Source: Georgenia wutianyii
GTDB taxonomy: Bacteria; Actinomycetota; Actinomycetes; Actinomycetales; Actinomycetaceae
Reading direction: 5' to 3'
Length of the DNA: 64,000 bases
Assembly (NCBI RefSeq): GCF_006349365.1
Contig: NZ_CP040899.1
Span: forward strand, 1,426,001-1,490,000
Shown: in pieces, positions 26,221-47,967 of the stretch
Numbering within the stretch: position 1 is the stretch's first letter
How the letters are laid out: every line of letters starts with the position of its first letter
Position numbers and translations under genes: made by a program
The notes under the pieces: generated by a model
Seen by the model: only the letters and a program-made list of their open reading frames with translations
Told to the model about the DNA's origin: nothing
Databases searched by the model: none

Positions 26221-26300
26221 GCACGATCCAGTTCTCGACGCAGACGCCCCCGCCCACCCGGGCGGGGGCGTCGCCCTTTCCCCCGAGAGCTGGATCGTGC
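26221..26300. repeat. Long inverted repeat at convergent operon ends
   Basis: Arms 26221-26237 and 26284-26300 (GCACGATCCAG ... CTGGATCGTGC) pair over 17 bases with one mismatch and enclose a second perfect hairpin. The same arm sequence occurs at 34210-34285 and once at 3351-3372. It lies between the 3' ends of sufT and kdpE and probably works as a two-way terminator. Confidence 0.7.
26243..26272. terminator. Bidirectional terminator hairpin between suf and kdp operons
   Basis: A perfect 13-base stem (GACGCCCCCGCCC with its complement at 26260-26272) and a four-base loop, followed on the plus side by GCCCTTTC. There is no long U tract, as is usual in GC-rich actinobacteria. Confidence 0.7.
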
Positions 26301-38694: not shown

Positions 38695-41550
38695 TCAGAG
38701 GAAGGTGTCCTGCGTCGCCGCGGCCTGGGCGGTCCGGTGCTTGTCCCATGACTGTGGCGACACGAAGATGGCGAGGTCCTGCGGTGGGATGCGCCGCGAG
38801 AGGTCCACCCGGACTGCGGTCGCGGCCTCGGCAGGCTCGACTGCGACCCTCGAGCTGCGGTTCCGTGTCGCATGGCTGTGCGCGCTCTGTGGCAGCCACA
38901 CTGTCACGTGGCCGGCGTAGTGGCGGTTCTGCGTCCTCGCGACCGAGCCGAAGACGTCGAGGGCGAAGGTCGTCTCGCTCGTCGCCAACGCGGCGAAGTA
39001 CTCCGGCTCGTCGCGCCACACGTTGTCCGAGTGAGGGCCGATCCGCTCGACCCGGCGCAACGGCAGCACGAGGTCGCCGCCGAGCACGGCCTCCCGGAGG
39101 CGGCCCGCCTGGATCTCTCCGAGCATCGCGCGGGCACTCCCGGACTGCCACATCTCCAGGAGCCGGCCCCGCGGCGAGATGGCGCTGGGTGACATGTCCA
39201 CGTCGACATCGAGGTAGCCGCTCGAGGCGGTGAGCAGCTCCTGGCCGGCAAGCCGCTCGTAGGCTGCGTCGAAGGCCTGCTGTGCCCATCCCTCGCGGTA
39301 GACCGCGCCGTAGGCGCGGGCGAGGAGCGTTGCGGGCAGGTCGAGCTGCTCCTCCTGCTGACGTGCCGCTGCCATCGCCGCGGGCAGCTTCCCCACGACC
39401 TCCTCCGCGAGCTCGTGGACCTGGACCGCCGGGGGTTCCCACGGCCGGTGCACGACCTCCGCGATGACCTCCGTCCAGTCCCGCCAGCCCTGGTACAGCA
39501 CGGCGAGCCGGCCGCGCTCCTTGCCCCGCCAGAGGAACGTCGCTGCTTCGGCGCGCTGCCGTGCCAGGGCGGTCCTCACCTCCCATTCGTACCGCCGGAA
39601 CGCCTTGTAGAACACGTGGTTGAACAGGGCCAGCAGGCCGACCGTCGTGACGACGATCCCCGTCGTCCACCAGGCCACGGTGCCCCAGTCGGGGCTCTCC
39701 TGCTCCTGCACGACGAGTCCCAGCACGACGAGGGCGAGGACACCGAGGCCCGACGTGACCCACCAGCGGCGCAGAAGCCGCCTCTTCGCGGCATCGAGCG
39801 AGGCGGTGGCGGGCGCCGTGACTCTCTCTGTCCCGTCCCAAGCCCGACGGCCGTCCTCGCAGGCGGCGAGCCGCCGCGCGACGTCGTCCCCGACCTGCCA
39901 GAGGACGCTGCACGCCTGGTCGGCGAACCACTCCCGGAACGTGGCCAGCTCGGTCCCGACCCGCTCGGCCTCGTCCTCGGCAGCCCGTAGCCGCTCGAGG
40001 ACGGCCGTCCGGTCCGCCTCCCAACGCTCTCGCGCCGCCGCGAGCGGGTCCACCGCGTCGTCGTCCGCTCCAGTAGCGCCCGGTCCGGTCGTCGCCGTCG
40101 GGTCCGACACTCCGGGCGGCAGGTCCCGCTCTGCGGCGTCCCGGAGCCGACGCAGCTCGCCGACCTCGTCCTTGCGCTCGCGCAGCTGTGCTTCGAGATC
40201 CGCGAGGTAGGACCGCATGGCCGGCGGGTCCGTCGCCGCGACCATTCTGCCGTCGAGCGCCGTGTGAGCGGAACCGGGCCGAGGGCCGACTTCACGCGGC
40301 CCGAGGACCTCTCGCTGCCCCAGCTGGCGTGGTGTGTCCATCCCGTCGACCGGGCCGCCGTCGGCGAGCGCGAAGCACAGCTGCCGCAACGTGCTCCACG
40401 TGGTCGGTGCCGGTGGTGCGCCGCGGGTCGCCTCGTAGGTCAGCGCCTCGGCCAGCTGGGACCGCTTGGCGGTGAGGATCGCGGTGGCGACCTCGCTCAT
40501 CGAGTCGACGGCGCGCGGCCCCAGGGTGACGACGGACCCGACGTCCGCACCGACGACCTGCCGGGTCGCCGTGCGCTCCGCGGCGTCCCGACCGCGACCG
40601 AAGGTCCACGCGGCCACGGCGCCCACCGTGTGGAGGCTGAACCGTGCAGCCCGGCCGAAGGCACCGGCCAGCGCCACCTGCTCCGGCTGCGGCTCCGCAC
40701 GGTCGGGTTCCGGCGTGGGCGCCCACTCTGGGGTCGTGAGGATCGCGTTCGCGGCGCGCCGGACGAGGAGCTCGGGGTCGCTCGCGGGCGTGGCCCACCC
40801 GACCACCTGGCCGGGACCGACCGGGGCGAGGGTCTCGGGGTCCAGCGTCCGGCGGCCGAGGACGTCGAGCACGTCCTCACCGACGACGGTGCGGATGGCG
40901 ACACGTGCGACGACGACGTCGTCCGGTCGGGTGGAGGAGTCGGTGCCCACCCTGTCGAAGACGCCGCCGGGGACACCTCGGACGAGGCCCGCGGCTGCCG
41001 CGACGGCGGCTGCGGCGTGGCCGGCGTAGTTGGTGGCCGGCCTGACGAACACCGAGGAGCGGTCGAGGTCCGGCCGGTCCTCGGGGGAGACGACGACGTT
41101 GGCCTCCCAGCTGGGCAGCAGGACTCTGCTGTCGATGTCCCTCACGTCGGTCGCCGGCACGAGGAGCAGGGTGCGGTGCAGGCTCGTCAGGTCGGTGCCC
41201 GACGGGTCGCGGGGCAGTGCCTGCCGGACGAGGTCTGCGACGAGCTCACCGACCGCCGAGACCTTGGGGTCGGCCTCCTCGGTCGTCGCCGCCAGCTGGG
41301 TGACGACGATGCGGACCCGGTCGAGCCGGAACCGGCCGAGGTGAGCGAAGAGGTCCACCCTCTCCTCGCCGTCGGGGTCGACGAGCCACGCGAAGACCTG
41401 CGGCGGCTGACCGTCGGAACGCACCATGTCCGCCTCCCGGACCCACAGGGACGGTTCGGTGATCCGCACCCGGGTCCACTCCGCGACCAGGGAGCGGACC
41501 GCGGTGGCGGTGGGGGTGTCGCCCGTGACGACGACGCTGATCGAGCGCAT
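38695..41550 (-). CDS. Large coiled-coil membrane protein of the tubulin-like/vWA operon
   Basis: 951 residues, not recognised. N-terminal 430 residues look globular and soluble (MRSISVVVTGDTPTATAVRS; repeated use of VVVxRVAIR-type strands). Charged heptad-like segments suggest coiled coils around residues 440-470 and 500-530. Two membrane segments lie near 590-612 (GLGVLALVVLGLVV) and 620-645 (GIVVTTVGLLALFNHVFY), leaving a C-terminal 300-residue soluble domain. The ATG shares one base with the stop of the tubulin-like gene, so they are coupled. Both soluble parts probably face the cytoplasm, where they could anchor the tubulin-like filament to the membrane; this is inference. No catalytic motif was seen. 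Confidence 0.8.
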   Translation of the reverse strand: MRSISVVVTGDTPTATAVRSLVAEWTRVRITEPSLWVREADMVRSDGQPPQVFAWLVDPDGEERVDLFAHLGRFRLDRVRIVVTQLAATTEEADPKVSAVGELVADLVRQALPRDPSGTDLTSLHRTLLLVPATDVRDIDSRVLLPSWEANVVVSPEDRPDLDRSSVFVRPATNYAGHAAAAVAAAAGLVRGVPGGVFDRVGTDSSTRPDDVVVARVAIRTVVGEDVLDVLGRRTLDPETLAPVGPGQVVGWATPASDPELLVRRAANAILTTPEWAPTPEPDRAEPQPEQVALAGAFGRAARFSLHTVGAVAAWTFGRGRDAAERTATRQVVGADVGSVVTLGPRAVDSMSEVATAILTAKRSQLAEALTYEATRGAPPAPTTWSTLRQLCFALADGGPVDGMDTPRQLGQREVLGPREVGPRPGSAHTALDGRMVAATDPPAMRSYLADLEAQLRERKDEVGELRRLRDAAERDLPPGVSDPTATTGPGATGADDDAVDPLAAARERWEADRTAVLERLRAAEDEAERVGTELATFREWFADQACSVLWQVGDDVARRLAACEDGRRAWDGTERVTAPATASLDAAKRRLLRRWWVTSGLGVLALVVLGLVVQEQESPDWGTVAWWTTGIVVTTVGLLALFNHVFYKAFRRYEWEVRTALARQRAEAATFLWRGKERGRLAVLYQGWRDWTEVIAEVVHRPWEPPAVQVHELAEEVVGKLPAAMAAARQQEEQLDLPATLLARAYGAVYREGWAQQAFDAAYERLAGQELLTASSGYLDVDVDMSPSAISPRGRLLEMWQSGSARAMLGEIQAGRLREAVLGGDLVLPLRRVERIGPHSDNVWRDEPEYFAALATSETTFALDVFGSVARTQNRHYAGHVTVWLPQSAHSHATRNRSSRVAVEPAEAATAVRVDLSRRIPPQDLAIFVSPQSWDKHRTAQAAATQDTFL

Positions 41551-44500
41551 CAGATGAAGGCGCTGTCGGCGTCGGCGCGGAAGTCGTCGACGGCGTGGTG
41601 GAGGTCGCGCAGCGCCGCCCGGATGAGGTGGCGCAGGTCGAAGGAACCGGGGTATCCGAGGATGTCGTGGCGTGCTTCGAGCGCCTCGAAGTGCCTGGCG
41701 AACGCGGCGGCCACCTTCTCGACCTGCTGGCGCGCCGCGGCCTGGCGGTCGGCAGCGGTGCGGGGGTCGGGTGACGGGTCCTGCGCCCGGTGTCCCGCCT
41801 CGATCCAGGTCCTGAGCTCCTGGGGCAGCGTGCCGGACTCGCTCGTGCCGAGGTCGAGCAGACGGAGGTAGGGACGCACGGGATCGAGCGACTCCTGGGT
41901 GTTCACCCGAAGGAGCGCGAGGACGAGTGACTCGAGGACGGCAGGCAGCACCTCCGGGCCCTGGCTGTTGCCCACGAGGAGCGGGTCGTCGAACGGGACG
42001 AAGCCCGCGGAGCCGCTCGAGCTGGCCGGGACGTAGACCGCGACGGCCGGGTCCTGCTGTACTTGGCCGAGCAGGCCCGCGGCGAACCACCCGCGGATCA
42101 GCTGAGTGAGCGTCTCGGGGTGGAGCGGGACCGCCTCCTGGAGGGGGCGGGCGCGGCGCCACCGCCAGAACTCCTCCCGTCCCTCGACCGACGCCTTCCG
42201 AGCGCCCCAGTCGCTCGCGATCGGGCGCATGAGGCTGTCGAAGACCACCGGCTCGTAAGGCTCGCCGAGGACCGTGAAGATGTCGATGAACCCCGCCTCG
42301 GAGTCGGAGAAGGACTGCTCGACGGTGGCCCCGAACTGGCCGCGGCCCTGCAGGGTCCGGACGAACGACTCCCGTGCCGCCGACCGCTCCGGGAACGGGA
42401 TCTCGCTGAACTTCTGCTGGTACGTGACGTTCGAGCGCCCGTGGACCCGGGTCAGCACCGAGGTGTTGATGCTCACGAGGGGCGCGCCCGCGTTGAGCGC
42501 GGCGACGAGCTGGCCCTCGAAGGCGCGCAGCCGCTCCGCGAGCTCGCTCGGCGCCGCCGCGCCCTCGGAGAGGTAGGCCCGCAGCCCTTCGTCGAGGTAC
42601 TTGCCGATCATCGTGCCGGGCCGGGTCACCCAGGCGGTCGCGCGGTGGAGGATCTGCGACGAGTTCCCGGCGACGCTGATCGTGGCACGCGTCGCCGCCT
42701 GCATGGAGCTGCGGTGGAGCCGCGCGTCGGCCGGGACCCACGGCTTGTCGATGGTGATCAACCGCTGGCGCTCGCCGTACACGGCCCCGAGGAGAACCTG
42801 ACGCTCGGCCGCGACGCGGGAGACCTGCGGCGTCTCCCCGCCCACGGTCCGGGCGACGACGTCCTCGAGGATCTGGGGGAAGGAGTCGACGCTCGAGAGG
42901 AGGAACTCGTTCGGCGCGGGCTTGAGACGGCTGGGGACGACGTCGCCCTCCGGCCACATCGAGATGAGGGACCCGCGCCCGTCCAGTCCGCCGGTCCGCT
43001 CGACGGCGAGCCCGTCGACGGCGTGGTCGACGGCCTCGGTGAGCGGCTCGAGGAAGTTCCGGCGCAGGTCGGGGATGAGGGCGACCGCCAGGTCGCGGGT
43101 GTCGGCTTCCTGCTCCCACTCGAGCGTCTGGATCGCGCGGTCGACGGCGAGCTCGATCTCGGCCTCGGTCACGCTCTTCCGCGTGCCGCCGAGGACGCCG
43201 GAGATCTCGTCCTCGAGGTTTGCCGCCCACCGCCGGCGGTGCTCGGCCTCGGCGTGCAGCTCCTCGGAGACCTCGTCGAGCTCGGTGACGAGGCGGCGCA
43301 GCATGACCGCGGCCACCCGGCCCCCGTGCTTGACCACGGCATCCGCAGCCGTGTCGACCACCCGGCGCTGGATGGTCTCGACCCACTCGACCGCCTGGCG
43401 CTCGCGCGACTCCCGCTGCTCGGCCGCGAAGCGGGACCGGCGGTCCAGCACCTCGTTCCGGACCCGGATGCGGACGTCGTCCGTCGTCAGGCCCTTGGCG
43501 GGCGACGCGGCGCGAACAGCGTCGAGGACCTGGGCACCGAGCTCCTGCCCGGCCCTGGTGAGCTTCGCCTGGTCGTGCAGGGCGTCGAGGACGGTGTTGC
43601 GGTCCTCGCCGCGCTCGTCGAGGCCGGTCTGGACGAGGAAGGCACCGAAGGCGTCGCTCGCCTGCTCCTGGACGAGCTGTGTCGCCGGCCGCTCGTCCCC
43701 TCGGGCGCGGAGCTCCTCGTGACGGTCCAGGACCATCTCGACGGCCGTCCGGGCGAGGTGCTCCGCGGCATAGGTCCGGAACCGGTCGCGGCCCAGGCCC
43801 ACCCGTGAGGAGCCCAGCGCCGTGAACGGCGTCTCCGTGCCACCGGGGTGGAGGCGCAGGTGGTCCGGCACAGCCCCCGACGTCGACGCCCACTGGGCGT
43901 GGAGATAGCCGGCCATGCTGTCCTGGAGCGCTGTGCTCGCCACCCACGACGCGATGGAACGGCCCATGGCCCGGTAGACGTCGTTCTGCGTCTTGTAGGT
44001 CACCGCCTCGTTCCGAGCACCGACGAGGAACGGGTAGCGAGGGCCGAGGCGCCGGCTGGCACCGGTGGACACCCCGGCCGCCTGGAACAGCTCGCTCGTG
44101 CTCTCACTGGGACCCTGAGCGTTCCAGTAGCCGCTCATCACCTCGGCGAGCGCGGCGAGGGAGTTGGCGCGGACGCCACGGCGGAGGGACTCGTCGATGT
44201 CGTCGAAGACGTCGGGGCAGTAGAGGATCCCGACGCTCTCCGACGCCCACTTGTCCGGCAGCCCGCGGATGACGTCGCACACGTCGATGATGGCGCCGGA
44301 GCCGCTGCCTCCCGCGATCGAGGAGATGACGACGACCTCCGGTGCCGGGGCGGTCGTACGGGGCTCCCCACCGAGTTTCTCGGTGAGGCTCTGCAGCACA
44401 CCGGTCACCTCGGCACCGGTGATCCGCCGGCGGGCCTCGCGCACCGCGTGGTCGATGCGGCTGAGCTGGGACAGGGTGATGACCCGGCCGAGCGCCCGGA

Positions 44501-44855
44501 ACTGGCCGGCCCCCTTGCTCGCGGGCACGTTGACCCGGTCGCGGTCGGGGCGCCACCCGCCGAGCGCATCACGCGCGTGGGTGCCGGCGGTCTGGAGCAG
44601 GGAGTCGTCGACCGTCCGGTAGTCGATCCCCGAGCCGATGAGGCCCTGGTACTCCCGCTCCGGGAGCTGACCGGGCAGGTCCGGCTCGTTGCCGTCCGCC
44701 GTCGTCGGCACGTCGATGTGGAGGAACTGCCAGGCGTCGGGGATACCGCGTGTCCAGCCGGCCTGCTGAAGGCGGCGCTCGAGGTCCTCGCGCACGACGC
44801 GGAGCGTCTTGCCGCCGGACCCGCCGACACCGACGAGAAGGAAGGGACGAAGCAT
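41550..44855 (-). CDS. Tubulin/FtsZ-superfamily protein (Tubulin_2 / FtsZl1-like)
   Basis: 1101 residues from ATG 44855 with GAGG seven bases upstream. LLVGVGGSGGKTLR at residues 6-19 matches the first nucleotide loop, and VVVISSIAGGSGSGAIID, with GGSGSGA at about 180-186, matches the tubulin signature (canonical GGGTGSG), followed by a partly FtsZ-like region to about residue 400. The remaining 700 residues are helical and unmatched. This is the profile of the large prokaryotic tubulin-like proteins proposed to remodel membranes together with a vWA partner, which is encoded just upstream. GTP binding is likely; polymerisation is inference. Confidence 0.82.
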   Translation of the reverse strand: MLRPFLLVGVGGSGGKTLRVVREDLERRLQQAGWTRGIPDAWQFLHIDVPTTADGNEPDLPGQLPEREYQGLIGSGIDYRTVDDSLLQTAGTHARDALGGWRPDRDRVNVPASKGAGQFRALGRVITLSQLSRIDHAVREARRRITGAEVTGVLQSLTEKLGGEPRTTAPAPEVVVISSIAGGSGSGAIIDVCDVIRGLPDKWASESVGILYCPDVFDDIDESLRRGVRANSLAALAEVMSGYWNAQGPSESTSELFQAAGVSTGASRRLGPRYPFLVGARNEAVTYKTQNDVYRAMGRSIASWVASTALQDSMAGYLHAQWASTSGAVPDHLRLHPGGTETPFTALGSSRVGLGRDRFRTYAAEHLARTAVEMVLDRHEELRARGDERPATQLVQEQASDAFGAFLVQTGLDERGEDRNTVLDALHDQAKLTRAGQELGAQVLDAVRAASPAKGLTTDDVRIRVRNEVLDRRSRFAAEQRESRERQAVEWVETIQRRVVDTAADAVVKHGGRVAAVMLRRLVTELDEVSEELHAEAEHRRRWAANLEDEISGVLGGTRKSVTEAEIELAVDRAIQTLEWEQEADTRDLAVALIPDLRRNFLEPLTEAVDHAVDGLAVERTGGLDGRGSLISMWPEGDVVPSRLKPAPNEFLLSSVDSFPQILEDVVARTVGGETPQVSRVAAERQVLLGAVYGERQRLITIDKPWVPADARLHRSSMQAATRATISVAGNSSQILHRATAWVTRPGTMIGKYLDEGLRAYLSEGAAAPSELAERLRAFEGQLVAALNAGAPLVSINTSVLTRVHGRSNVTYQQKFSEIPFPERSAARESFVRTLQGRGQFGATVEQSFSDSEAGFIDIFTVLGEPYEPVVFDSLMRPIASDWGARKASVEGREEFWRWRRARPLQEAVPLHPETLTQLIRGWFAAGLLGQVQQDPAVAVYVPASSSGSAGFVPFDDPLLVGNSQGPEVLPAVLESLVLALLRVNTQESLDPVRPYLRLLDLGTSESGTLPQELRTWIEAGHRAQDPSPDPRTAADRQAAARQQVEKVAAAFARHFEALEARHDILGYPGSFDLRHLIRAALRDLHHAVDDFRADADSAFI

Positions 44856-44896
44856 GGAGGGACCTCGGTTCTGGGGAGGAGGGACAAGGGTGGGGG

Positions 44897-47617
44897 TCAG
44901 CGGCGGGGCGGAGGAGGGGGCGGGGTACCGCTGCGCCCGGGCGAGGGCGGAGGTGGTGCGTCCTGACCACCAACGCGGCGCCGACCGTTCTCCGGGACGC
45001 GCTCGCGAGGCGGCGGTGGACCGTCCGAGCGACCGCGGGGCGGGGGAGCGGACACGGACGGGACATCGCGGCGGGGAGGAGGTGCGGACCCGCCGCCGGC
45101 CGGCACGGGACGTGCGGGCGTCGTCGTCCCGTCGCCGTCCTGCGACAGGTGTGGACGAGTGCCGGACGCACCGGTCACGGCTGCGCCCGACGCGACCTGC
45201 TCCCAGGCAGCGCGCGCGCGTGCGACCTCCCTGGCCCACGGCACCCGGGCCAGCTCCGCCAGGCGGTGGGGCAGCAGGCTCGCGACGCTCTGCTGCCCGG
45301 GGTCGATGACCATGACGAGCGTGCCCCGGAGATCGCCCTCCGGCGTCGTCGGCCGCTCCGTCGCGACGACGAAGCCAACACTTCCCGGGAGCTCGGTCTG
45401 CCGGGTCCACGGACCGCGCCGTCCCTTGACGACGTGCGTCACGGGCACTCGCCCGGGGACGGTGACGAGAGCCTGGGGCTCCGCGAGCGGGTTCCACGGG
45501 TACCTCACCACGTGGCGCACCGGGCCCGCCTGGAAGGAACGGACCCTACCGTGGACCGGGAGGTGGCGGAACTCCTCGGACGAGAGGAGGGCGGTGGCGC
45601 CGTCCGTGCGTTCGAGCCCACGCTCGGTCATCCGGACCGGCACCTCGGCGTACTTCGTCTGCGGGCCGAGCCGGAAGCGGCCCAGCAGGCGCCGCGCGAC
45701 GACCGCGCTCAGGTAGGCAAGCCCGAGGGCGAGCCCGGTGAGCACGGCGACGAGCGAGAGCTGCGCCGCGACGTCGACAGGTCGCACCATGGTCCCGGTG
45801 ACGCGCACCTGCGCCTCGATCTGATCGCCGTCGACGCCCTGAAGCGTGACAGGCAGCGTGCCGTTGATGCGGCCGTCCGCCTGCTCCTGTGCGTCGAGGT
45901 CGACGGCCACGTCGACCGACGCGTCCGCCTCGATCTCGACGCACTCGGTGGCGGTGCCCAGTCGGACGGCGCCGGCCTGCTCCGGTGCCGACACCGTCCC
46001 GGCCCCGAAGCATGCGCGCGTCGGACCGCGCTCCGCCCCGGTCAACGTGAGGACGGCCCGGGCAGTAGTCGCACCGTCGAGACGGCCGAAGTCGAGCTCC
46101 GCCGGCGCGATGACCGGGAACGACGGGGGGAACTGGGTGCTGAGCACCTGCTCGACCGTCACCGGCCCGAGCTGGATCCCCCCAGGCGTCGTCACGGCCG
46201 TCGCCCGGCCGCTCACCGTGAGGGAGGAGACCGCGACGTCGGTCGGGACCGTGACCTCGCCGAGCCAGCCGTCGCCGTCGGCGCGGAAGTCGGACGCCTC
46301 GCCGTCGACCGTCGCCTCCATGACCGCGGACCCGTAGACGTCGAGCGGGACGGGGGAGCCGTCCGCCGTGCGCGGCACGATCCGCAGCCGGCTCGGCTCG
46401 CCGATCACCACCCCGTCCGGCGCCTCGACGGTGAGGGTCACGCCCCAGAAGTGGTAGAGGTCGATGACGGTCGTCGCCGTCGGGTCGGTGACGAGCGTCC
46501 ACGTCCCGGTGTCGGCCCCGACGTCCCGGACGTCGACGGTCGTGAGACTGCTGCTCGTGAGGACACTGACGCCCGCGCCGCCGACCTCGGCTGTCGGAGC
46601 GTCGAGCACCGAGGTGCTCCCGTCGGGTGCCACGAGCTGCATGGGGGCAGCACCGGCCGAGCTCTGGGCGACGATACGGAAGCCTCCGAGGCCGGGGTCC
46701 ACCGGGATGGCGAGGCGCCCCTCCGTGCAGTCCCGGGGGCACTCGGCAGTGCCGGTCGACGTGAACCGCTCCAGCAGCGCCCCCATATGTGCGAACAGCC
46801 TCGCAAGGGCGCCGGCGTCGTCCGCGTTGAGGAACGCCCCGTTCGTGACGTCGGCCGGGACGGGCACAGACCCGCACGACTCCCCGCCGGCACTTCCTTC
46901 GGCGATCGCCTGCAGGCGATCGCGGTCCACCGGCGTGGCGGCACCCTCTCCCTCGGAGGTCATGAGGCCCATGGCGATGACGGCGACGTCGTCGGCGCGG
47001 ATGCCGTCGACCGTCCCGCCGGGCTCGCACAGCTCGAGGCGGGCGGCCTCGGTCGCCGGGCGGTCGCCACGCCCGTCGACGTCGAGCTTCCCGTCGGTGA
47101 GCCAGAGGACGAGCTTGCACGACGTGCCGCCGACCTCACCTGCGCGCTCGTCCAGAGCCGTCTGGGCGTCCCCGAGCGCTCGACGGTAGTCCGTGAGGCG
47201 GGCCCCGTCCCGCGAGGGGAGCTCCTCGCGCACGGCGGACCGCAGGTCCTCGGCGTGCTCGCCGCTGACAGCGCCCCAGCCGACGAGCTCGGTGCTCGTC
47301 TCACCGAACACGGAGAGCCGGGCCTGGACGTCGAGGGCGCCGCCGCTGTTCGCCGCGAGGCGCTCGAGAGAGTCCAGCGCCGTGTCGATCGCCCCGACGC
47401 GGAGGTCGTCCGGGTCGGTCGCGCGCAGGCTGAGCGACTCGTCGACGACGACGGCGGCGAGGAGGTGGTCGGCCTCCGCAGCGCACGCGGCGACGGCCGA
47501 GACGCTCTGCGACCCGACCGGTGAGATGTCACCGACCGCGGCGGCGGGCCCGGTACCCAGGACGACCGCGGCGAGCAGGCAGGCGACGGCGGCCCACCAC
47601 CCGGCGGCGCGCCTCAC
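44897..47617 (-). CDS. Membrane-anchored von Willebrand A protein with proline-rich tail
   Basis: 906 residues from a GTG at 47617 that overlaps the previous stop (GTGA); an ATG at 47665 is in frame but would overlap by 52 bases. Signal sequence residues 1-28; vWA domain with complete MIDAS: Asp59-x-Ser61-x-Ser63 (VVDESLS), Thr in LTDYRRAL and Asp in LWLTDGKLD. Beta-rich extracellular domains follow with paired Cys (ECPRDC), then one membrane helix near 612-640 (LSLVAVLTGLALGLAYLSAVV) and a cytoplasmic part ending in about 70 residues rich in Pro, Gly and Arg. It could bind a ligand outside and signal or connect to the tubulin-like protein inside. Confidence 0.85.
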   Translation of the reverse strand: MRRAAGWWAAVACLLAAVVLGTGPAAAVGDISPVGSQSVSAVAACAAEADHLLAAVVVDESLSLRATDPDDLRVGAIDTALDSLERLAANSGGALDVQARLSVFGETSTELVGWGAVSGEHAEDLRSAVREELPSRDGARLTDYRRALGDAQTALDERAGEVGGTSCKLVLWLTDGKLDVDGRGDRPATEAARLELCEPGGTVDGIRADDVAVIAMGLMTSEGEGAATPVDRDRLQAIAEGSAGGESCGSVPVPADVTNGAFLNADDAGALARLFAHMGALLERFTSTGTAECPRDCTEGRLAIPVDPGLGGFRIVAQSSAGAAPMQLVAPDGSTSVLDAPTAEVGGAGVSVLTSSSLTTVDVRDVGADTGTWTLVTDPTATTVIDLYHFWGVTLTVEAPDGVVIGEPSRLRIVPRTADGSPVPLDVYGSAVMEATVDGEASDFRADGDGWLGEVTVPTDVAVSSLTVSGRATAVTTPGGIQLGPVTVEQVLSTQFPPSFPVIAPAELDFGRLDGATTARAVLTLTGAERGPTRACFGAGTVSAPEQAGAVRLGTATECVEIEADASVDVAVDLDAQEQADGRINGTLPVTLQGVDGDQIEAQVRVTGTMVRPVDVAAQLSLVAVLTGLALGLAYLSAVVARRLLGRFRLGPQTKYAEVPVRMTERGLERTDGATALLSSEEFRHLPVHGRVRSFQAGPVRHVVRYPWNPLAEPQALVTVPGRVPVTHVVKGRRGPWTRQTELPGSVGFVVATERPTTPEGDLRGTLVMVIDPGQQSVASLLPHRLAELARVPWAREVARARAAWEQVASGAAVTGASGTRPHLSQDGDGTTTPARPVPAGGGSAPPPRRDVPSVSAPPPRGRSDGPPPPRERVPENGRRRVGGQDAPPPPSPGRSGTPPPPPPRR

Positions 47618-47967
47618 CACTTGGCCAGCTCCGTCGCGACGAGGTAGCCGCAGAAGAGCCCGCACGCCAGGCCGGCCACGGCCAGGCCGAGGGACGCGCG
47701 GTCCAGCAGCGGACGTCGCAGGAAGTGCTTGCTCCGCCGTAGCGAGCTGAGCGACCGGTAGAGCGTCAGGAGGAAGACGGCGACGACGGCGCCCAGCACG
47801 TAGCCGACGACGGCGAGCTCCCAGGGGGCTTCCCTCGCGGCGACGAGCCAGCCGAGCACCGCAGCCGCGGCAACCGCACCACCCTGGAGGGCAACCGGCC
47901 AGTACGGCGGGACGGTGGGCTGGACGGCCGTGGCCGTCACTCCGTCCACCCGTGGTGGCGCGAACAT
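47614..47967 (-). CDS. Small three-helix membrane protein, first gene of the tubulin/vWA operon
   Basis: 117 residues with hydrophobic segments near 28-45 (GGAVAAAAVLGWLVA), 52-70 (AVVGYVLGAVVAVFLLTLY) and 92-112 (LGLAVAGLACGLFCGYLVA), and a basic loop (LRRSKHFLRRPLLDR). Unrecognised. The ATG at 47967 lacks a clear ribosome-binding site; GTG 47940, with GGTGG before it, would give 108 residues. The TGA stop overlaps the vWA start. Confidence 0.7.
   Translation of the reverse strand: MFAPPRVDGVTATAVQPTVPPYWPVALQGGAVAAAAVLGWLVAAREAPWELAVVGYVLGAVVAVFLLTLYRSLSSLRRSKHFLRRPLLDRASLGLAVAGLACGLFCGYLVATELAKW

Follow-up and report, generated by a model that had tools for sequence, protein, structure and literature searches.

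A stretch of 64,000 nucleotides from Georgenia wutianyii (the window, whose positions are used throughout), part of a genome that is a single 3.45-Mb contig, holds a leftward operon of four genes on the minus strand between positions 47967 and 38695. In the order of transcription they encode a 117-amino-acid (aa) membrane protein, a protein with a vWA domain, a 1101-aa tubulin-like protein of the FtsZl1/Tubulin_2 family, and a 951-aa protein. Gene 1 runs into gene 2, a gap of 41 nt separates genes 2 and 3, and genes 3 and 4 overlap as TGATG; judged from the sequence, these overlapping or near-touching gene ends suggest a single transcription unit. The arrangement of four open reading frames (ORFs) is not due to chance, because long ORFs are kept in the same order across loci. 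An ORF check found all four on the minus strand where a preliminary description of this DNA had placed them. That description gave the vWA protein 906 aa, which differs from the 907 aa of the database copy in nothing but the start codon. The features are as follows.

47614..47967, minus strand: 117-aa membrane protein, with three helices predicted by hydropathy at residues 24-44, 47-76, and 91-115
44897..47620, minus strand: vWA protein; the database copy has 907 aa, and the frame, open from 47665, has 922 aa from the furthest start
47429..47443, minus strand: DxSxS motif (DESLS) of the metal ion-dependent adhesion site (MIDAS); MIDAS Thr codon at 47192-47194, Asp codon at 47093-47095
45692..45781, minus strand: the one membrane helix predicted by hydropathy in the vWA protein (residues 629-658, numbered on the 922-aa frame)
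41550..44855, minus strand: 1101-aa Tubulin_2/FtsZl1-family protein (Pfam match, predicted structure)
44805..44831, minus strand: T1 loop GVGGSGGKT, residues 9-17 of the 1101-aa protein
44292..44315, minus strand: T4 tubulin signature AGGSGSGA, residues 181-188 of the 1101-aa protein
42786..43712 (approximate), minus strand: putative long-helix insert within the tubulin fold, about residues 382-690 of the 1101-aa protein
38695..41550, minus strand: 951-aa protein, mostly cytoplasmic apart from a membrane hairpin; matches no Pfam family and lacks a P-loop
39622..39768, minus strand: membrane hairpin of the 951-aa protein: helices at residues 595-616 and 625-643 (hydropathy) with the intervening turn

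The tubulin-like protein and its membrane partners

The 1101-aa protein matches the Pfam family Tubulin_2 (PF13809) over residues 6-372 with an E-value of 4.7e-56 and 191 bits against a cut-off of 27, which bears out its proposed membership of FtsZl1/Tubulin_2. Its closest named relative is from Georgenia muralis (83% identity), and a metagenome protein is 90% identical. Residues G9, G11, G12, S13, G14, S179, G182, and G185 are invariant in 96/96 aligned rows of the family, while G183 (95/96), G15 (92/96), and G187 (83/96) are less strict. Two loop motifs, a nucleotide loop and a tubulin signature, had been described for this protein. Both GVGGSGGKT and AGGSGSGA are present, but we read GVGGSGGK as the T1 loop of tubulin rather than as a second P-loop. 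Hydropathy finds no membrane helix in the window copy, and the protein is a cytoplasmic tubulin homologue that very likely binds GTP. The single match to PF00091 (canonical FtsZ) in the genome lies elsewhere, and the operon tubulin is not the canonical FtsZ; we read the system as accessory rather than as a division machine.

The predicted structure of the 1101-aa protein (mean predicted local distance difference test score [pLDDT] 93.9, predicted template-modelling score [pTM] 0.87) is a high-confidence tubulin-like model whose fold matches CetZ, tubulin, FtsZ, and TubZ. The best matches are to CetZ, an archaeal member of the tubulin superfamily, at 11-14% identity in the structural alignments. 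CetZ is not known to have such a long insert or a vWA operon. The fold had been expected in the first 400 residues, and in the model these do form a tubulin-like structure, but it seemingly extends beyond them: the protein appears to carry both tubulin domains, split by a large helical insert. The putative insert, at about residues 382-690, was placed from the secondary structure of the model and the end points of the structural matches, and in the 96-row alignment this region is less conserved than the flanking parts up to residue 990. A highly conserved FWxWRRARPL block (residues 896-905, window 42141-42170) lies near the probable end of the tubulin fold and is perhaps a contact surface. When the tubulin profile was run against the sequences of solved structures, no tubulin came up at E ≤1, just helical proteins and a few others.

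The vWA protein begins with a signal-like segment and the vWA domain; a further region leads to its one membrane helix, beyond which lie a cytoplasmic part and a proline-rich tail. Hydropathy and sequence agree with the signal, helix, and tail described earlier, and the claim that all MIDAS residues are present also held. In 66 aligned rows these residues are kept as D 65, S 65, S 65, T 66, and D 66, and four cysteines occur in 66/66, as would be expected of a folded, disulphide-bearing extracytoplasmic domain. The Pfam VWA_2 match is below cut-off (E 4.8e-4, 21.2 bits versus 27). Against solved structures, the vWA profile gives weak vWA matches, the best to a bacterial secreted protein (3.1e-4), with vWA domains of Plasmodium TRAP at E-values of 0.0019-0.0092. 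A single-pass vWA receptor with a cytoskeletal partner, of the TRAP or integrin type, serves as our working analogy; it is an analogy only, homology having been tested for the vWA domain alone. The proline-rich tail is common among relatives (at least 20% Pro over the last 90 residues in 43/67), and its sequence is not fixed (PPP inside the last 15 residues in 29/66).

The two membrane helices described for the 951-aa product and the three for the 117-aa product were recovered by hydropathy. Neither protein has a Pfam family, the 951-aa protein has no P-loop, and no NCBIfam model is matched at its cut-off by any of the four products.

Conservation, variation, and genomic setting of the four genes

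A contig scan with a 26-row tubulin alignment yielded 80 loci, the best 80 of 151 confirmed, so that 81 loci were examined with the window included; 18/81 had no room on one or both sides and were left out. In the other 63, the four genes were sought with iteratively built profiles that drew on the very loci being counted (the 80 and the window), and the order small gene, vWA gene, tubulin gene, 951-aa gene on one strand was recovered in 59. The four-gene order is therefore conserved elsewhere, with a homologue of the 117-aa gene preceding the vWA gene in other loci. The exceptions are L072 and L087, where the small gene was not recognised; L073, which has no recognised 951-aa relative and an unscored 934-aa frame there; and L071, a tandem array of a tubulin end, a tubulin, a small gene, a vWA gene, and a tubulin (L071:1-12824). 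The L071 contig is titled as a Bifidobacterium breve metagenome-assembled genome, and its tubulin groups with those of uncultured actinobacteria; the bin has probably been titled wrongly. Other titles are also unexpected for loci in which the actinobacterial operon or its tubulin occurs: L058 (Planococcus), L050 (Luminiphilus), L063 (Saprospiraceae), and L096 (a Rhodococcus record under Cyanobacteriota). Misbinning, contamination or, for L050, transfer may be the cause.

A separate survey of the class found Tubulin_2 in 27/393 genomes. Besides the window's genome, 26 genomes gave 27 loci, of which 10 (from 9 genomes) are of the window's type and 17 are not. Five of the ten (L126, L127, L132, L134, and L135) probably belong to genomes already counted. 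All four genes stand in order in 4/4 independent complete loci (L128-L131); one more independent locus, L133, is a fragment in which three genes are present.

Loci of the window's type differ in what follows the four genes. In Mycobacteriales, the set is followed by a 682-aa gene, a GAP1-N2 gene (PF20013), a 315-aa gene, and a DO-GTPase2 gene (PF19993). At L082, where DO-GTPase2 is below cut-off, the added 682-aa and 315-aa genes beside it and GAP1-N2 (L082:16206-22850) are without a Pfam match; the L107 counterpart of the 315-aa gene has a weak vWA-TerF-like match, below cut-off. With at least 6.5 kb past the 951-aa gene considered, GAP1 and GTPase are present in 22/22 loci assigned to Mycobacteriales from record titles, versus 0/35 other loci, window included. 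Mycobacteriales loci were the source of the GAP1 and GTPase profiles, and matches to the GAP1 profile also occur in L127, L128, L129, and L131. In the window genome (G000) no DO-GTPase2 was found, with 83/83 candidates scored against PF19993 and the DO-GTPase1 model left unsearched, and GAP1-N2 (PF20013) has no match. Both are also unmatched in five more genomes of this type, G091, G332, G065, G241, and G297, with candidates for DO-GTPase2 scored in part in G091 (71/76) and G332 (71/112). Both are matched in G158 (DO-GTPase2 below cut-off), G256, and G337, whereas G347 matches just GAP1-N2. A quick-search tubulin tree, supported by the Shimodaira-Hasegawa-like approximate likelihood ratio test (SH-aLRT) alone, joins Mycobacteriales and members of family f31 in a single clade (SH-aLRT 100) that sits amid members lacking the GTPase half; the exact position of this GTPase-bearing clade is weakly supported (82). 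The pattern fits one gain of the GTPase half or several losses, and the long outgroup branch allows either. From the 22/22 versus 0/35 split, the whole-genome scans, and the tree, it follows that the four genes are the constant core of this type. Three loci from Acidimicrobiia or nearby lineages have, close behind the 951-aa relative, an open frame rich in proline and arginine (L065:16190-17302, L066:16842-17885, and L074:8275-9633), a possible fifth component of that lineage.

The 17 survey loci of the other type (L109-L125) have a tubulin much more distant from the window's, and in eight of them we examined the genes individually. The tubulin has a long gene ahead of it in 6/8, the remaining two not being resolved; the four of these six that were scanned all match Pfam vWA models, two below cut-off. 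A membrane gene follows the tubulin in 8/8. Profile comparison of the two types by hhalign gave probabilities of 99.8% for the upstream protein versus the vWA protein, 97% for the tubulins, and 0.5% for the downstream protein (8 sequences) versus the 951-aa protein, so that kinship between the last two is not supported. The downstream protein (L109, L112, L114, L116, L118, L122, L123, and L125) has two to five hydrophobic stretches, mostly mid-chain, and the four copies that were scanned match no Pfam family; in function it might correspond to the 951-aa protein. In 9/17 of these genomes, DO-GTPase2 is matched no more than about 7.5 kb away from the tubulin (two below cut-off), and L118 has a weak kinase match, below cut-off.

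The operon lies in a variable stretch, because same-genus genomes lack or rearrange it there: window positions 26222 and 48259 have counterparts 1.1 kb apart in one (L143) and 2.75 kb apart in another (L144), and a third (L142) has a LuxR-type gene beside a conserved ABC-F gene. The stretch also holds kdp genes (KdpD kinase with response regulator, and KdpA) and a LuxR-type AAA regulator (window:26310-37890). We rejected a discrete mobile island, as the window has no tRNA gene, its G+C content is even, and the stretch is shared with the kdp genes and the LuxR-type regulator; no integrase was found among the window proteins scanned, which did not include every frame.

Comparison with described systems

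FtsZl1 proteins have been known since 2010 (PMC2875224). The sections of that paper considered here, by Makarova and Koonin, mention an actinobacterial FtsZl1 clade, and one of its reviewers points to a vWA protein of C. glutamicum that has a signal peptide. P-loop GTPase, kinase, and OmpA-family genes are linked there to FtsZl1-vWA frequently, not universally. The window operon shares with that system an FtsZl1/Tubulin_2 protein with coiled coil, an operon-linked vWA protein with an intact MIDAS, and membrane-bound, lineage-specific partners, but it differs in having no P-loop GTPase, kinase, or OmpA gene. None of these is present among the four products, kinases and other GTPases not having been searched genome-wide, and OmpA-family matches occur at just two places in the genome, both unlinked to the operon. 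The four-gene set may already be listed in the gene-context supplements of the 2010 paper.

Kaur et al. (2020; PMC7159879), in the portion used here, report for actinobacteria tubulin systems whose other members are GAP1-N2, DO-GTPase, an FNIII-vWA membrane protein, and an FNIII-HRDC protein. The window operon shares with this theme a single tubulin with a helical C-terminal part and a membrane-bound vWA protein. Its relatives in Mycobacteriales directly adjoin GAP1-N2 and DO-GTPase2, whereas the window genome has no match to either. The preliminary description had presented the locus as an actinobacterial version without the GTPase and OmpA-like parts. Their absence stands, as far as DO-GTPase2, GAP1-N2, and linkage of OmpA are concerned, but an actinobacterial form had already been described; what is distinct here is an actinobacterial branch without the GTPase half.

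A proposed receptor-linked system and its alternatives

Gene content, gene order, conservation, intact motifs, and a predicted fold are established for this locus. Topology, co-inheritance, and motif conservation support a four-part, receptor-linked, membrane-bound tubulin system, to which we assign a probability of about one half. The vWA protein would display its intact MIDAS domain outside the membrane, where it would bind a wall, surface, or foreign ligand, and send one helix into the cytoplasm. The 951-aa protein would be a cytoplasmic partner held by its membrane hairpin and the 117-aa protein a small membrane subunit; through these two, ligand binding would recruit the tubulin-like protein or trigger its assembly at the inner membrane face, and assembly would change the membrane or wall locally. 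The link from an outside ligand to a cytoplasmic polymer, which had been proposed earlier, fits the predicted topology. We infer GTP binding and hydrolysis, sensing by the vWA protein, assembly and polymerisation of the tubulin, contacts among the four proteins, the ligand, and the purpose.

Several observations weigh against this system. Topology is less uniform among relatives than in the window: two hydrophobic stretches occur in only 33/58 relatives of the 951-aa protein and three in only 32/67 relatives of the 117-aa protein, and the same hydropathy test flags one or two stretches in 32/79 tubulin relatives. The T7 catalytic acid of the 1101-aa protein is not clear; the candidate, D312, is Asp in 62/96 rows and Glu in 7/96. 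Foldseek with the 1101-aa model gave two Protein Data Bank rows at E ≤0.001 among the matches listed, and target-normalised TM-scores were 0.28-0.45 over the best 50 rows. The large insert could hinder filaments. Tubulin_2 is found in just 17/297 genomes of the order and, within the genus, in 1/4 drawn (the window's own). Finally, polymerisation, GTPase activity, and interaction are predictions.

Two alternatives concern purpose and are compatible with the receptor-linked system. Kaur et al. (PMC7159879), in the portion used here, proposed for tubulin-vWA-DO-GTPase-GAP1-N2 loci a role in biological conflict, in which the vWA protein would sense an invader and tubulin assembly would contain it or disrupt the membrane; the window's operon would represent a variant that lacks the GTPase switch. 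The position of the four genes directly before GAP1-N2 and DO-GTPase2 in Mycobacteriales points this way, as do the patchy distribution and the fact that three same-genus genomes lack the operon-bearing stretch at the corresponding position. Among relatives of the 951-aa protein, 5/35 have weak Pfam matches of holin type (best E 0.0015), which would fit membrane disruption, although they may reflect just the hairpin. The defining switch proteins are, however, unmatched in the window genome, which lowers the case for membership of the 2020 system and not that for working alike. A search of PADLOC models at E 0.1 gave nothing for any of the four proteins, Pfam shows no nuclease or protease domain in them, and no component is swapped in 59/63 loci, in contrast to the highly variable effectors of conflict systems (PMC7159879). 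We consider a conflict role rather unlikely, and to a similar degree a general membrane-remodelling or vesicle system with no sensory role, as suggested by the 2010 study (PMC2875224). Membrane segments in 3/4 products and a tubulin fold nearest to CetZ agree with remodelling, but the conserved MIDAS of the ectodomain points to ligand binding, and the distribution is patchy.

Two further readings concern the assembly itself. An improbable one is a GTP-switch adaptor that forms no filaments, with a tubulin-fold dimer or small ring between the vWA and 951-aa proteins. The long insert and the uncertain T7 residue are in its favour, and a partner without a nucleotide loop, the 951-aa protein, could cap assembly. 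The second tubulin domain is seemingly present, however, and according to Makarova and Koonin (PMC2875224, sections considered here) characterised proteins of the FtsZ-tubulin superfamily all form filaments. A tentative reading, which we hold doubtful, is that the operon encodes a pair of tubulin folds: the active 1101-aa protein and a degenerate 951-aa protein without a nucleotide loop, whose coiled coil and membrane hairpin would be inserted into the second domain at about the same place as the insert of the 1101-aa protein. As an integral part of the system, such a pseudo-tubulin would anchor the polymer to the membrane or cap it, with assembly controlled from outside by the vWA receptor. 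In hhalign comparisons, the 951-aa protein matches Tubulin_2 with a probability of 0.2%, and segment comparisons gave ≤0.6%. If the pair reading were true, a separate GTPase or anchor protein would be needless, and a tubulin polymer would be attached to the membrane by a membrane-anchored pseudo-tubulin, which we know of in no other system.

The predicted model of the 1101-aa protein speaks to a question raised in 2010. The T6-H7 elements and the second tubulin domain could not be identified in FtsZl1 (PMC2875224, sections considered here), whereas both seem to be present in the model; the second domain seemingly exists, split by a large insert. A limited literature search found no experimental study of FtsZl1 proteins, 'tubulin2' there mostly naming something else. 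Related actinobacteria keep the four genes together, and we infer their function only: by its make-up the vWA protein seems suited to holding on to an extracellular target, and both membrane remodelling (2010) and the containment of invaders (2020) are possible purposes. The locus is the smallest conserved unit of one actinobacterial form, with four genes versus eight in Mycobacteriales. In a genome with no match to the GTPase half, it is a simple setting in which to ask whether FtsZl1 proteins polymerise and what their role is.

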